Origin: Nitrospirota bacterium
Lineage (GTDB): Bacteria; Nitrospirota; Thermodesulfovibrionia; Thermodesulfovibrionales; UBA1546
DNA: 34,495 nucleotides
Assembly: GCA_016208875.1 (NCBI GenBank)
Contig: JACQXD010000089.1
Location: 1-34,495, forward strand
Direction: 5' to 3'
The position numbers were made by a program, and so were the translations under genes. Positions 2,482 to 24,219 of the stretch are shown piece after piece. The notes under the pieces are model-generated. The model worked only from the letters and a program-made list of their open reading frames with translations, did not search any database and was not told where the DNA came from. How positions within the stretch are numbered: the stretch's first letter is position 1; every line of letters starts with the position of its first letter.

Positions 2482-3809
2482 GATTTGCCTTCTTACAGAG
2501 ACGATTTTATCTCAGTCTCTATGTATTCCTGCCGGTATTTTTTTCCGTCTTTGCATTGGCTATCCCTCTTATCTTTTTGACAAAATTCAGATCCATCCTT
2601 CAAATGCGTGTCATCGCAACGAGCGAACTTTTTTTAATCTACAGGTCAATAGAGCAGTGGACGTATATCTTTGCGGCTGCGGCATTTGTCGCGGGTTTAA
2701 TCGTTGCGTATGGCCTTGTAATATCCGCAAGGAGATTGCTTAGGAATACAGGGGATAAAGATATAGAGGAATTCGGTTCGCTCGGGAAGGAGTTCACGAG
2801 GATAGCGACCTCGTTGAGGGATTATACGTCCCTGCTCGGAAGCATGACCGGAGGGATAATAGTGATGAATAAACGCGGGGAGATAACAATGATAAATCCT
2901 CATGCCTGTTATATCCTCGGATGTTCGGAATCGGATGCGACAGGTAAAAATATTGATTATCTGATAGATATATCAAAGGATTTTGAGAAGGTTATGAAAG
3001 GGGAAGAAGTAACCTCCGAGCTGACTGCAATGATAAATAAAAAGGAATGTATAATCGGTTATACGCTTTCACCGGTAAAGGGTAAAGACACGGTAGACGG
3101 AGCGGTTCTCGATTTTATGGATATTACAAAAATAAAGAAGATGCACGAAGAGATGCAAAGGACAGAGCGATTGGCCGGCATCGGAACGATGGCAATGGAA
3201 GTCGCACATGAAGTAAGGAATCCATTAGCCTCGATCAAGGGTCTGACCCAGCTTATAGGCGAAGATATGAAGGATGACGAGCAAAAAAAAATCTATATCA
3301 CCATGATACTCTCGGAAATCGAGAGACTGAACAGGGTTGTGGATACACTTTTCGAGAAAAAGACGACAGTCCCGGACAAGGAAAATCTCAGGGAGATGAT
3401 ACACAGAATTGTGCTTTTGTGCGGCCAGGCTGTGAAGGGCAAAATTGTAAAGGTTACGGAAGAGTACGACAAGACGGCTGATGGAATGCAGATAAAAGAC
3501 GAGCGGCTGTTTCACGCCATCTATAACATAGTCCTGAACGCGTACGAAGCAGTGAGGGAAGATGGGGAGATAAGCATAAAGACACAAAAGGCTGATAATA
3601 GGACAAAGATCGAGATATGCAGCGATTCGGAGGTAAGTCCTGCAATACTTGTAGACAGGATATTCGAGGTGGATGTAACCACTAAAGGCGGCGGGCACGG
3701 GATGGGGTTGAAGATTGCGAGGGATGCAATAAAGAATATCGGCGGGGATATAGAAGTAGAGACTGCAAGAGGGAAGACGAAATTCATAATCCGGCTGCCG
3801 GGCGTGTGA
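2451..3809 (+). CDS. NtrB-type sensor histidine kinase (2 TM, PAS, HisKA, HATPase)
   Basis: AHEVRNPLASIKGL H-box, NIVLNAYEAV N-box, TTKGGGHGMGLKIARD G-box. Confidence 0.92.
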   Translation: MGHDTRYEKIRFAFLQRRFYLSLYVFLPVFFSVFALAIPLIFLTKFRSILQMRVIATSELFLIYRSIEQWTYIFAAAAFVAGLIVAYGLVISARRLLRNTGDKDIEEFGSLGKEFTRIATSLRDYTSLLGSMTGGIIVMNKRGEITMINPHACYILGCSESDATGKNIDYLIDISKDFEKVMKGEEVTSELTAMINKKECIIGYTLSPVKGKDTVDGAVLDFMDITKIKKMHEEMQRTERLAGIGTMAMEVAHEVRNPLASIKGLTQLIGEDMKDDEQKKIYITMILSEIERLNRVVDTLFEKKTTVPDKENLREMIHRIVLLCGQAVKGKIVKVTEEYDKTADGMQIKDERLFHAIYNIVLNAYEAVREDGEISIKTQKADNRTKIEICSDSEVSPAILVDRIFEVDVTTKGGGHGMGLKIARDAIKNIGGDIEVETARGKTKFIIRLPGV

Positions 3810-18505: not shown

Positions 18506-20583
18506 TATTTTCGAGAATTGTCTCATCCGTTGTGGTTATTTTTTTAATTGCCTCCTGTGCACCAAGACAGACTGCTAAAGAAGTAAAGACGGAGACGCCA
18601 TCCACGGCAGGGGAGATAAAGTTGCCGGAACTTCCGCCTCAAAGACCTGCCGAGACAAAAGAAACAAAGAAAGTTGAGCCGGTCAGGATTGAAAAAGAGG
18701 CGGATGAAAAATATGTAATATTAAATTTTGATGGGGCCGACATCGAGACGGTAATATCCACGATCGGAGAACTTCTTAATATGAATTATATACTCGGAGC
18801 GGGTGTCTCGGGAAAGGTTACGATCCAATCTTATAAGAAATTTCCCGTAAGGGATCTTTTTCAGATATTCCAGACCATCCTTGAATTGAACGGTCTGACC
18901 GCAGTGAAGGACGGAGCGTTTTATAGGATTGTGCCTATAGACACGGCAAAACAGCAGCCCGTTCCTATCGAAATAGGAAAAGAACCTAAATTTCAGATCG
19001 ACTCGAGTTTCATTACACAGATAATTCCCCTTGAACATGTTAAGGCAAATGACGTAGTTAATATCCTCAGAAACCTGATGCCTCGCGGTACCGATATTGT
19101 TGTATACGAGCCGACCAATCTTCTGATAATTACTTCTCTGCCTTCCGGGCTCGTTAAATTTATGAAGGTACTCGAGGCCGTTGATGTGTCTGCCGTAGAA
19201 CTCGAGTCGGTCAGAACATTCGTTTATTATGTCGAAAACGGCGAGGCGAAGAAACTTGCGGATATATTAAAGCACCTATATTCGGAAAAGAAAGAGACAA
19301 AGGGCGTGGTTCCAAGACCTATCGTACCGCCTCCTACTGCTCCCAAAGGTTTGCCTGTTACAACGGAAAGTTTGCCTGGAGAGATCGAGGGCGAGATGGT
19401 CATTGTTGCATATGAGGATATAAATAGTATTCTTGTCAAGACAAGCCCGAGGAGTTATGTTGCAATACTCGAGACATTGAAAAAACTTGACGTGCCTGTA
19501 AAACAGGTTCTTATTGAAGTTCTGATAGCCGAGATAAAGTTAAGTGATTCTACAAAGTTGGGGATTGAGTGGCTATTGAAGGCGCCTGTACACGCCGGAG
19601 GAGGTAAATTTACGAGTCTATCGGGATACGATTCGAGTTCCGTTGATTTTCCCGGCACTATCGATACCGATATAACTTCGGTTTCAGGACCGGCAGGATC
19701 CTATTTTGCGTCCATTATTAACCCCGATAGGTTTGGTGCCCTGCTTACTGCATTTGCAGGATTCGGAAAGGTAAACGTCCTTGCAAGCCCTCATATCCTT
19801 GCCATGGATAATAAAGAGGCGAATATACAGATAGGCGAGGATCTACCGGTGGCAACAGGACTAACGCAGCAGCCGTCTACAGCCGGCGGAACGACCCTTG
19901 TTTCATCGGGTCAGATACAGTATAAGACAGTCGGAACGATCCTGACGGTTAAGCCGCATATAACGGAAAAAAATCGTGTTACCCTCGATATAACGCAGGA
20001 ACAGAGTCAGCTCGGAGAAAAGATACCTATTGCCGGGCAGGACTTCCAGGGTTTTAATACGAGGAAGGCCAAGACCACTGCGGTTGTTCAAAGCGGACAT
20101 TCGCTTGTTTTAGGCGGATTGATAAGCGAGACGAAGAGCGAAGGAAGATCCGGAATCCCGTTCTTGAGCAATATTCCTGTCTTAGGCCATCTGTTTTCGA
20201 CAACGAGCAACTCGTTCAGTAAAACCGAACTGGTGGTAATGGTTACCCCGCATGTCCTGAATAATCAGGAAGAGGCAGATGCCCTTACAAGAGAATTTCA
20301 AAATCGGGTGAAGACTATTAAAAAGAGGCTTGATGAGATAAAACCTCTTGAAGAATCGAAGATTAAAAACTTTATGAATATTACCGTTGAAAGGGATTCC
20401 CCTTTAATGGACATAATAGAGTCAAGCGGGTATACTTTAACCGATGAAGATTACGGTGCTTTTTTAAGCGAGTTCCTAAGGTTGAATAGTGATATAAAAG
20501 ATATTAAATTAATAGAAAAGGGAAGCGTAATCAGGTTGCCTTTAAACTACCTTAAAAAACAGAAGTCGGCAGAAAGGAGGTGA
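18502..20583 (+). CDS. gspD: Secretin GspD/PilQ-like, lipoprotein, with short C-terminal extension
   Basis: Lipobox LIASC; N0/N1 domains; secretin motifs VLIEVLIAEI, LVLGGLISE, PVLGHLFS, ELVVMVTPHV. Confidence 0.93.
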   Translation: MIFSRIVSSVVVIFLIASCAPRQTAKEVKTETPSTAGEIKLPELPPQRPAETKETKKVEPVRIEKEADEKYVILNFDGADIETVISTIGELLNMNYILGAGVSGKVTIQSYKKFPVRDLFQIFQTILELNGLTAVKDGAFYRIVPIDTAKQQPVPIEIGKEPKFQIDSSFITQIIPLEHVKANDVVNILRNLMPRGTDIVVYEPTNLLIITSLPSGLVKFMKVLEAVDVSAVELESVRTFVYYVENGEAKKLADILKHLYSEKKETKGVVPRPIVPPPTAPKGLPVTTESLPGEIEGEMVIVAYEDINSILVKTSPRSYVAILETLKKLDVPVKQVLIEVLIAEIKLSDSTKLGIEWLLKAPVHAGGGKFTSLSGYDSSSVDFPGTIDTDITSVSGPAGSYFASIINPDRFGALLTAFAGFGKVNVLASPHILAMDNKEANIQIGEDLPVATGLTQQPSTAGGTTLVSSGQIQYKTVGTILTVKPHITEKNRVTLDITQEQSQLGEKIPIAGQDFQGFNTRKAKTTAVVQSGHSLVLGGLISETKSEGRSGIPFLSNIPVLGHLFSTTSNSFSKTELVVMVTPHVLNNQEEADALTREFQNRVKTIKKRLDEIKPLEESKIKNFMNITVERDSPLMDIIESSGYTLTDEDYGAFLSEFLRLNSDIKDIKLIEKGSVIRLPLNYLKKQKSAERR

Positions 20584-20984
20584 GTAGAATGAAGAAGTCA
20601 TTGACAAGATATATATCATGGTATTTAATGGTCGCGATGTTTATAATCGGGATTGCACCAAGGGCCGATGCAGGTCTTGTGCCTTCGGAATTGATGATCG
20701 TATCGCAGATAGATAGGACTGCTGACTTTGAAAAGATTCAGAAAGTTCTTGAGATGAAGATGGTCGGCGATAGACTGGAGAAATTCGGCCTCACAAAAGA
20801 TGAGATACAAAAGAAATTGACCACCCTGAGCGATCAGCAGATACATGGGTTAGCCCTCCGGATCGACGATCTCAAGGTTGGAAAAGATGATGTGGTCGGC
20901 GCAGTAGTCGTTATTCTTGTGGTAGCCATACTTGTTGTTTTGCTGCTTCAGCTTTCCGGCCGCAGGGTCATAGTTACAAGATAA
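20580..20984 (+). CDS. PA2779-like small membrane protein
   Basis: Signal/TM N-term, LxxFGLTKDEIQKKLTTLSDQQIHGLALRIDDL, C-terminal TM; next gene is a C39 peptidase. Confidence 0.65.
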   Translation: MSRMKKSLTRYISWYLMVAMFIIGIAPRADAGLVPSELMIVSQIDRTADFEKIQKVLEMKMVGDRLEKFGLTKDEIQKKLTTLSDQQIHGLALRIDDLKVGKDDVVGAVVVILVVAILVVLLLQLSGRRVIVTR

Positions 20985-20985
20985 A

Positions 20986-21543
20986 ATGGGAAATAAGAAA
21001 TTGGAAGTAAGAAGTGGAAAGTTAAAATTTCACTTCTTACTTCTTACTTTTTACTTCTTATTTGCCTGCGCTGCTACCGGTAATATTCAGGAATCGAAAA
21101 AGCACATCATTGAGAATGTCCCTTTTTATCCGCAGGAAACGGATCGGTGCGGTCCTGCATCCCTTGCAGGTGTAATGAATTACCTGAATATCGATGTAAC
21201 GGCCGGTGAGGTCTCGGAGGAGATATACAGCGAATCTGCGAGAGGCACTCTGGATGTCGATATGGTTGTTTATCCGCAGAAAAAGGGGTTGATCGCCGGG
21301 CAATATTCCGGCGGCATGGAGGATTTGAAAAACAATATAGATTCGGGATTTCCTCTGATAGTCCTTGTTGATTATGGATTCTCGATATTGCAGTCAAATC
21401 ATTTTATGGTTGTCATCGGATATAATGAACACGGCGTGATAGTAAATTCCGGAAGGGATAAGGCAAAGTTTATACCCGAGAAGGACTTCATAAAGTCGTG
21501 GAAGAGAACGAAGTTCTGGACGCTGCTTATAAAAAGAAAGTGA
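20986..21543 (+). CDS. C39-family (PA2778-like) cysteine peptidase lipoprotein
   Basis: VPFYPQETDRCGPASLAGVMNYL, HFMVVIGYNEHGVIVNSGRDK; lipobox LFAC. Confidence 0.8.
   Translation: MGNKKLEVRSGKLKFHFLLLTFYFLFACAATGNIQESKKHIIENVPFYPQETDRCGPASLAGVMNYLNIDVTAGEVSEEIYSESARGTLDVDMVVYPQKKGLIAGQYSGGMEDLKNNIDSGFPLIVLVDYGFSILQSNHFMVVIGYNEHGVIVNSGRDKAKFIPEKDFIKSWKRTKFWTLLIKRK
20991..21063. repeat. Heptamer-period inverted repeat (CTTCTTA) encoding the signal peptide
   Basis: CTTCTTA CTTCTTA CTTTTTA CTTCTTA at 21033-21060; reverse-complementary arm AAATAAGAAATTGGAAGTAAGAAGTGGAAAG at 20991-21021. Confidence 0.9.
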
Positions 21544-21629
21544 ATAGTAAACAGTATTTAGTGAACAGTTTAAAGAAAAAGGCACTGTATTTTTTTATCT
21601 ATTCACTATTCACTATTCACTATTCACTG
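21540..21629. repeat. Heptamer-period inverted repeat (GTGAATA / TATTCAC)
   Basis: Left GTGAATA GTAAACA GTATTTA GTGAACA; right ctattcactattcactattcactattcac. Confidence 0.9.
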
Positions 21630-22034
21630 CTTTCTTCTTGTTCCCTTCCAAGGATAATCGTTCTCGAAGACCCTCTTAGTCCCGAGGAACATATAAACCT
21701 CGGTGTCGCATATGAGAAAAAAGGCGAACTTGACAATGCACTGAAAGAATATAAGGAGGCATCAAAAAAACTGCCGGCTGCATATTTATACATCGGTAAT
21801 ATCTATTTTCAAGAAAAAAGATTTGATGAGGCGGAATTATATTACAAGAAGGCAATAAAAAAAGATTCCCAAAACGCCGCTGCATATAATAATCTTGCAT
21901 GGCTTTATTACACAAAGAAAGAAAATCTCGATGATGCGGTTACCCTCGTACTTAAGGCGATGGAACTCAACCCGTCAAGGAAGGACGTCTATCAGGACAC
22001 ACTTGAAAAGATAAGAAAACTTAAAAATTATTAA
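21540..22034 (+). CDS. TPR lipoprotein (likely GTG start at 21540, overlapping the C39 stop as GTGA)
   Basis: MNSKQYLVNSLKKKALYFFIYSLFTIHYSLLSSC lipoprotein signal then TPRs (HINLGVAYEKKGELDNALKEY). Confidence 0.75.
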   Translation: MNSKQYLVNSLKKKALYFFIYSLFTIHYSLLSSCSLPRIIVLEDPLSPEEHINLGVAYEKKGELDNALKEYKEASKKLPAAYLYIGNIYFQEKRFDEAELYYKKAIKKDSQNAAAYNNLAWLYYTKKENLDDAVTLVLKAMELNPSRKDVYQDTLEKIRKLKNY

Positions 22035-22097: not shown

Positions 22098-22109
22098 GTC
22101 CTTATATTC

Positions 22110-22195
22110 CCCCTTTGGCAAAGGGGGATGAAGGGGGATTTTTGAATAAATAAATTTTCAATAAATCTCCCCTAACCCCTCTTTGCCAAAGAGGA
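22110..22195. repeat. CCCCTTTGGCAAAGGGG-type palindromic element (inverted pair)
   Basis: ccccctttggcaaagggggatgaagggggattttt ... aaatctcccctaacccctctttgccaaagagg. Confidence 0.85.
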
Positions 22196-22237
22196 AGTCC
22201 CGATGAAACCCGGATAATAGGTTATCGGCTTGGAAGA

Positions 22238-23475: not shown

Positions 23476-24219
23476 ATGCAAAAAAGCAATAAGGCAATTT
23501 TGAAAGATATCAAGGCTGTTCTTGAATTCTATCAAGCACTTGGATTTGAGAGGCTGCCGCTTAAAACGATACAAGATACAGGATACAAGATACAGGATAC
23601 AAAATCATGCACCATGAATCATGCATCGTGCATCGTGCATCGTGCATCGCCGCTCAATTCCGGGCAAAAGGAAACCGCTTTGAAAGAACTGCGTGATGAG
23701 ATCGGTGATTGTCAGAGGTGTAAGCTCTCGAAGGGTAGAAAAAACCTTGTTTTCGGAGAAGGAAGCGTTGATGCAGAGATTATGTTCATAGGCGAGGGTC
23801 CTGGAGAGGAAGAAGATATTCAAGGAAGGCCGTTTGTCGGCAAGGCGGGGCAACTACTTACGAGTCTGATAACAAAGATGGGCTTTAAGAGGGAGGATGT
23901 TTATATAGGCAATATAGTCAAGTGCAGGCCTTCGTTTAACCGCGACCCCGAAGATGATGAAATAAATGCCTGCCTGCCGTTTATCGAAAAACAAGTTGAG
24001 ATAATATCTCCAAAGGTTATAGTTTCCCTCGGCCGGATATCCACCCAGACCTTGATAGGCATGAAGACTCCAATAAGCAAAATAAGGGGACACTTCCATA
24101 CATTTAATGATATCCCCCTGATGCCGACATTCCATCCTGCCTATCTACTTAGGAATCCCAAGGATAAATGGCTTGTCTGGGAAGATGCACAGAAGGTTTT
24201 AGAACGACTGAATAAATAG
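23476..24219 (+). CDS. Type 4/5 uracil-DNA glycosylase (Fe-S)
   Basis: GDCQRCKLSKGRKNLVFGEG, FIGEGPGEEEDIQGRPFVGKAGQLL, NIVKCRPSFNRDPEDDEINAC, PTFHPAYLLRNP. Confidence 0.95.
   Translation: MQKSNKAILKDIKAVLEFYQALGFERLPLKTIQDTGYKIQDTKSCTMNHASCIVHRASPLNSGQKETALKELRDEIGDCQRCKLSKGRKNLVFGEGSVDAEIMFIGEGPGEEEDIQGRPFVGKAGQLLTSLITKMGFKREDVYIGNIVKCRPSFNRDPEDDEINACLPFIEKQVEIISPKVIVSLGRISTQTLIGMKTPISKIRGHFHTFNDIPLMPTFHPAYLLRNPKDKWLVWEDAQKVLERLNK
23568..23648. repeat. Heptamer-period inverted repeat inside UDG (GATACAA/G x5; ATGCATC/GTGCATC x5)
   Basis: Left 23568-23602, right 23614-23648, five units each. Confidence 0.9.

Follow-up and report, generated by a model that had tools for sequence, protein, structure and literature searches.

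At the junction of two genes in the genome of an uncultured Thermodesulfovibrionales bacterium (Nitrospirota), an inverted repeat of 7-base units at positions 21539–21628 encodes MNSKQYLVNSLKKKALYFFIYSLFTIHYSLLSSC, the predicted lipoprotein signal peptide (SP) of the downstream TPR protein, and this repeat probably belongs to a dispersed class that has been co-opted repeatedly as SP at translationally coupled genes. The window, i.e., the whole 34,495-nucleotide stretch analyzed, is contig C14 of this 2.93-Mb, 248-contig genome (G000), which we compared with Thermodesulfovibrionales MAGs at one assembly per species. Genes and SPs were called by home-made heuristics, the SPs by inspection of n-region, h-region, and lipobox together with hydropathy. 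The operon contains, in order, a PA2779-like gene, a C39 peptidase gene, and the TPR gene, with the following features.

20580–20984, plus strand: PA2779-family protein (DUF6627), first gene of the operon (Pfam PF20332, E 5.8e-13; NCBIfam NF033919, above cut-off).
20984–21063, plus strand: upstream heptamer hairpin, unit GTAAGAA / TTCTTAC, holding the ATG at 20986 and encoding the n- and h-region of the C39 SP (from the fold and the lag-7 array).
20986–21543, plus strand: C39-type cysteine peptidase gene, N-terminal half of PA2778, predicted lipoprotein (PF13529, E 2.6e-16; NF033920).
21539–21577, plus strand: left, purine-rich arm of the focal repeat, with the C39 stop, the overlapping GTG, and the basic n-region VNSKQYLVNSLKK (repeat search, fold).
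21540–21542, plus strand: GTG start of the TPR gene, in a 4-base GTGA overlap with the C39 stop (ORF reading).
21540–22034, plus strand: TPR lipoprotein gene, C-terminal half of PA2778 (TPR_2, E 7.5e-17; NF033920).
21541–21543, plus strand: TGA stop of the C39 gene (ORF reading).
21590–21628, plus strand: right, pyrimidine-rich arm, (TATTCAC)n, with the hydrophobic h-region FIYSLFTIHYSL (repeat search, lag-7 test).

The arms of the focal repeat are each 39 nt long and 77% complementary, and the right arm contains CTATTCA in four perfect copies at 21599–21626 and a lag-7 match at 18/18 positions (0/500 codon shuffles). Read from the GTG at 21540, the TPR frame begins (M)NSKQYLVNSLKKKALYFFIYSLFTIHYSLLSSC|S, with a basic n-region (VNSKQYLVNSLKKK), an h-region (FFIYSLFTIHYSL), and the lipobox LSSC, in agreement with the pattern [LVI][ASTVI][GAS]C after a basic n-region and a hydrophobic h-region. 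The first-pass annotation had placed both the C39 stop and an overlapping GTG inside the repeat and had read the repeat as the source of a lipoprotein SP, with its n-region from the left arm and its h-region from the right; the codon positions are as it claimed, and the SP is credible by inspection and hydropathy. We expect the GTG to be used through translational coupling, and the SP is predicted from its sequence to be cleaved and lipidated. The GTG lies within the basal stem of an RNA fold of −26.8 kcal/mol (z −4.2; 0/200 shuffles equally stable). Of the two strands of the unit GTGAATA, the left contains stops and the right is stop-free. The same element is found at the same place in G003 (JACQXE010000017.1), at 86% identity over 99 nt compared with 69–72% in flanking coding DNA, and is common to the two genomes by descent. 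A second heptamer hairpin, unrelated to the focal one, forms the predicted lipoprotein SP of the C39 protein, MGNKKLEVRSGKLKFHFLLLTFYFLFAC (arms by fold at 20984–21019 and 21028–21063; −33 kcal/mol, z −5.55). Further along the window, at 22100–22200 on the 3′ side of the TPR gene, is a different dispersed inverted repeat, translated TCCCCCTTTGGCAAAGGGGGA / NPPLPPFTKGGRGG, which also occurs in L079 and, in G003, lies in frame within the LptE SP alongside heptamers (L123). An in-frame heptamer hairpin is located at 23566–23652, near the start of the ORF at 23476–24219, and a comparable insert occupies the matching position in G006 (L225:6726-6755).

Periodicity of seven bases recurs in the SP of the TPR gene among relatives. 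In 42 orthologous TPR genes, which have the lipobox Cys at the same position, the 51 nt preceding the Cys codon showed a lag-7 identity of 0.463 versus 0.309 for codon shuffles (z 15.6), with lag 14 at z 12.0, lag 21 at z 8.0, and other lags without positive excess, these z-scores being overstated through the phylogenetic relatedness of the loci. The signal was individually significant at 21/42 loci (p ≤ 0.05). At least 10 unrelated units are distributed by lineage: TATTCAC (own genome and G003), TATTCTG, CTTCTTA, CTACTGT, CTTCTGG, CTACTGG, CTCTGTC, CTACAGT, CTTTTAA, and GTTACGT. The 4-base start/stop overlap is present at 20 of the 42 junctions (12 GTGA, 8 ATGA). At 12/42 junctions the pairing between the locus's own left and right arms exceeds that of 95% of arm pairs combined across loci (binomial p 7e-7), and the recurring theme in relatives is the right-arm heptamers rather than the whole hairpin. 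The C39 gene is a weak case of a heptameric SP: when periodicity was measured relative to the conserved HIIENVPF stretch no signal appeared, because the Cys is about 10 codons upstream, and after re-anchoring on the Cys, 9/51 loci reached p ≤ 0.05, only two of them strongly (L022, L029).

Two further families, selected after one or two of their orthologues had been found heptameric, gave a comparable picture: LptE SPs had a lag-7 identity of 0.505 (z 15.8; strong in 16/29), and those of a SurA/PpiC-like protein 0.412 (z 8.9; strong in 9/29), with no strong arrays in the mature parts of either gene. In families picked without regard to repeats, heptameric SPs numbered 1/15 for BamD and 0/21 for OmpH, these loci being taxonomically unmatched to the others in that most of the best-scoring matches belonged to different families within the order; PA2779 SPs of the same operon had a strong 7-base period in 0/47 orthologues. 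The effect is therefore gene-specific rather than a general rule of SPs. Within genus g2, LptE proteins with mature parts 84–96% identical have SPs of different heptamers, namely CTACTGT (G006, G012), TTCACTR (G008, G010, G013), and a TTTAATT/TTTTGCA mixture (G014). When about 1.8 Mb from five genomes was surveyed, arrays overlapped 17/269 SP-like N-termini versus 13/1029 cytosolic ones (odds ratio 5.3, Fisher p 1.3e-5), or 13/265 versus 11/1027 with the focal genes removed (p 2.4e-4); the counts were 1/181 for polytopic proteins with an N-terminal TM segment and 8/1560 for internal segments of SP-like genes. The SP-like class includes prepilins, in which heptamers form the prepilin leader. 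In L067:819-2552 of the own genome, three neighboring prepilin-like genes have leaders (before G/A|xTLxEL) made of ATCGTGC-type heptamers.

Heptamer arrays are dispersed through the own genome, in which they were counted in samples, part of these chosen for holding GTGAATA arrays. Strong tandem arrays with a period of 7 numbered 32 in 254 kb, against 0–2 for periods 5, 6, 9–11, and 13, and 12 for period 8, which partly represent the same low-complexity tracts or 8-base relatives. A larger sample contained 71 strong arrays of 38 units, many seen once and the commonest being AATAGTG. Arrays occupy 1.6% of bases between genes versus 0.4% within genes; the intergenic ones often directly follow a stop ahead of the next start, and dozens lie in frame inside genes. 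For about 80% of the sampled arrays no complementary partner could be detected inside 120 nt, so not every array is part of a hairpin, and among sampled hairpins purine-left outnumber the reverse 32 to 4. About 20 further sites in the genome have arrays of GTGAATA type (44 overlapping matches, compared with 0 when the pattern was reversed as a control), and the focal TATTCAC unit is likewise found in arrays elsewhere. A strict search of the own genome for matched double-heptamer hairpins returned a single locus (its two strands), the arms being too degenerate for such a pattern. In-frame heptamer hairpins in the genes for HisC (L058:2183-3407, array 3030–3108) and QueA (L081:18149-19274, array 18985–19056) correspond to about 20 extra residues relative to PDB relatives; GATACAC, a unit of these inserts, is stop-free on both strands. 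The proC gene was rejected as a further insertion example, its alignment with PDB structures being without a gap and replacement or chance being the alternative. In-frame arrays were also seen in homoserine dehydrogenase and several aminoacyl-tRNA synthetase genes (L079:1351-1426, L073:1941-1977, L056:12458-13471, L060:17312-17351). The distribution over the phylum is patchy: G084, from another class, has 15 matches to the TTCACTR array pattern, and most genomes between have none.

The genetic code offers a likely rationale for the placement of these repeats. Since seven is no multiple of three, a unit yields the same heptapeptide in all three frames, and a stop-free arm is therefore usable in whichever frame it lands. 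Across all 1184 heptamers without a stop on either strand, the mean hydropathy of the heptapeptide and that of its reverse complement are inversely correlated (r = −0.72); the common SP units have hydropathies of +0.7 to +2.3, and their complements, where open, −1.2 to −2.9. Because complementary strands code for opposite hydropathy, the two arms suit a basic n-region followed by an h-region, and the prevailing purine-left orientation puts the basic part ahead of the hydrophobic one, as in an SP. The focal element probably belongs to a set of several hundred short, dispersed heptamer repeats in this genome, many of them imperfect hairpins, and lies at a tightly coupled junction without an intergenic spacer, where its purine-rich left arm gives the C39 stop, the overlapping GTG, and the basic n-region, and its complementary pyrimidine-rich right arm the h-region leading into the lipobox. 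We infer that such repeats normally reside in spacers and that at coupled genes only the cleavable leader is available to them. Heptamer repeats have probably become, repeatedly, the SP of the TPR partner of PA2778, of LptE, and of the SurA/PpiC-like protein, with unrelated units per lineage and with replacement even between species of one genus. A stronger version, which we put forward tentatively as a possibility, is that the hairpins are a portable, frame-independent SP cassette, with the purine left arm as stop/start overlap plus n-region and the pyrimidine right arm as h-region, and that a set of Thermodesulfovibrionales envelope genes (TPR partner of PA2778, LptE, SurA-like, some prepilins) keep swapping repeat-made SPs under selection.

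Whether SP function as such retains the repeats bears on a reading that we consider somewhat unlikely, according to which neutral or selfish insertions are just tolerated in the leaders of exported genes, where constraint on the coding sequence of a junction is weakest, and are under no selection as SP. It would account for the arrays between genes and in cytosolic HisC, QueA, and homoserine dehydrogenase, and for the N-termini of tightly coupled genes being those most affected. However, once present the array is itself the h-region, so that its loss would be costly; the element is better conserved between G000 and G003 than the coding DNA around it; and the N-terminal TM anchors of polytopic proteins are rarely affected. 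Tolerance and co-option are compatible rather than exclusive, and we consider that SP function beyond mere tolerance probably retains the repeats.

The co-option reading also supposes that the repeats spread as elements; many copies are dispersed in the genome, in frame inside genes as well, a property shared with RPE- and MITE-like elements; fixed ends were not seen, and the orthologous junctions, which differ by whole arrays, included no clean empty/filled pair. If instead low-complexity hydrophobic SP codons grew in place into 7-base arrays by slipped-strand mispairing, with no dispersed element involved, one would understand the many arrays without a partner arm and the large number of units among the own-genome arrays, many occurring once; the SP units TTCTTAC and TTTTGCA in particular may have arisen in this way, being rare elsewhere in the sampled DNA, and heptanucleotides reportedly outnumber all other classes of long SSR in most bacterial genomes (Mrazek work as relayed in PMC4679880). 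We nevertheless consider such expansion unlikely for the class, as the same units are dispersed between genes and within cytosolic genes, matched left arms accompany a portion of the junctions, units change over a whole SP while the mature protein remains nearly identical, and the SPs of BamD, OmpH, and PA2779 are free of arrays, apart from the one BamD case.

Some of the evidence could be taken to indicate that the RNA is what matters, the hairpin masking the GTG and enforcing translational coupling of C39 to TPR with the SP as a by-product. The two folds, whose stems include the start codon (z −4.2 and −5.6), the frequent start/stop overlap, and the tight upstream coupling of heptameric-SP genes, for which the median distance from upstream stop to mature start is 89–115 nt versus 362 for BamD and 143 for OmpH, are all consistent with this. 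The arms, however, are specifically matched at only 12/42 junctions versus a periodic right arm at 21/42, and we judge this account improbable. A phase-variation locus in the manner of Neisseria opa, in which the addition or deletion of a single 7-base unit would put the gene out of frame and turn the lipoprotein off, is most improbable, for although the unit is no multiple of three and lies inside the SP, the copies are few (about four) and often imperfect, and one would expect outer-membrane assembly to require LptE as an essential protein.

The co-opted heptamers have partial parallels in known systems. In Neisseria opa, CTCTT coding repeats in the leader are a known phase-variation switch (PMC3960869, PMC5354566) and likewise constitute a tandem repeat, of a unit no multiple of three, in the leader-coding region of an exported protein; opa has one pentamer, one gene family, and switching, whereas here there are many unrelated heptamers in several genes, often with a matched left arm, and no evidence of switching. 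The 168-bp RU-2 MITE of Yersinia forms part of the SP of YPO1552 (Delihas, PMC2229807) and is similar in that a dispersed palindromic element read in frame gives a hydrophobic stretch serving as SP, but it is a single element family in one new putative protein, as opposed to conserved envelope genes with units replaced lineage by lineage. Rickettsia palindromic elements (RPE; reviewed in PMC2229807) also occur both between genes and in frame within conserved protein genes and differ in being unique sequences of 105–146 bp rather than short heptamer arrays. The TAACTGA repeats of marine Beggiatoaceae (PMC4679880) resemble ours as heptamer arrays near starts and stops, with three-frame stops on one strand and overlap with the upstream stop codon; they consist of a single unit and are for the most part noncoding and located 5′ of the start, with no SP role described in that paper, and the units here (GTGAATA, GATACAC, ATCGTGA, GTAAGAA, etc.) are of other sequence. 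None of these parallels unites unrelated heptamers, conserved envelope genes, and turnover, and the open-access literature yielded no direct precedent for heptamer-built SPs or for such repeats in Nitrospirota. If correct, co-option would be a concrete, repeated route from selfish or satellite-like DNA to a working protein-targeting signal, explained by the opposite hydropathy of complementary strands and by a repeat length that is no multiple of three. The orthologues with 84–96% identical mature parts and unrelated SPs provide a natural series for testing SP turnover, and automated gene prediction in genomes of this kind may put starts in the wrong place or overlook SPs.

The relation of the C39/TPR pair to PA2778 was resolved in part as the first-pass annotation had described it. 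The gene content and order (PA2779-like, C39, TPR) are those of the PA2778/PA2779 operon (NF033920, NF033919), of which the Pseudomonadota examples have C39 and TPR as one gene where there are two here; PA2778-type single genes of 747 and 966 nt were found in Azoarcus and Eleftheria, and NF033920 spans both parts, so its description as a single C39+TPR polypeptide was right. The 255-position model matches the C39 protein over positions 2–144 (E 1.5e-32) and the TPR protein over 156–255 (E 6e-10), i.e., in consecutive parts, with scores of 113 bits (P0001) and 38.9 bits (P0002) that are each below the 150-bit cut-off, for the C39 protein because its TPR half is a separate gene. By profile comparison the pair is the split equivalent of the PA2778 family cysteine peptidase, although neither protein is a member of the one-protein family by that cut-off. 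The accompanying proposal that the element split a fused gene was rejected, since C39 and TPR are adjacent, separate genes in the readable relatives whether these have the focal repeat, other repeats, or none at all (e.g., L042, L044, L045, L050), an outcome that the first-pass annotation had itself named as counting against the proposal. At the readable junctions both proteins usually have lipoprotein-type N-termini. Either the split predates the element or the fused gene is a derived state of Pseudomonadota. Other dispersed repeats occupy C39 or TPR N-termini in several relatives (L025, L154, L026, L030, L041, L046, L047), and these are of the FPLVGNPSEERLRTSRSD type, the MSLRGAKxTKQS..LLRFARND type, and the MSEAHSSAFSLKPSAF type.
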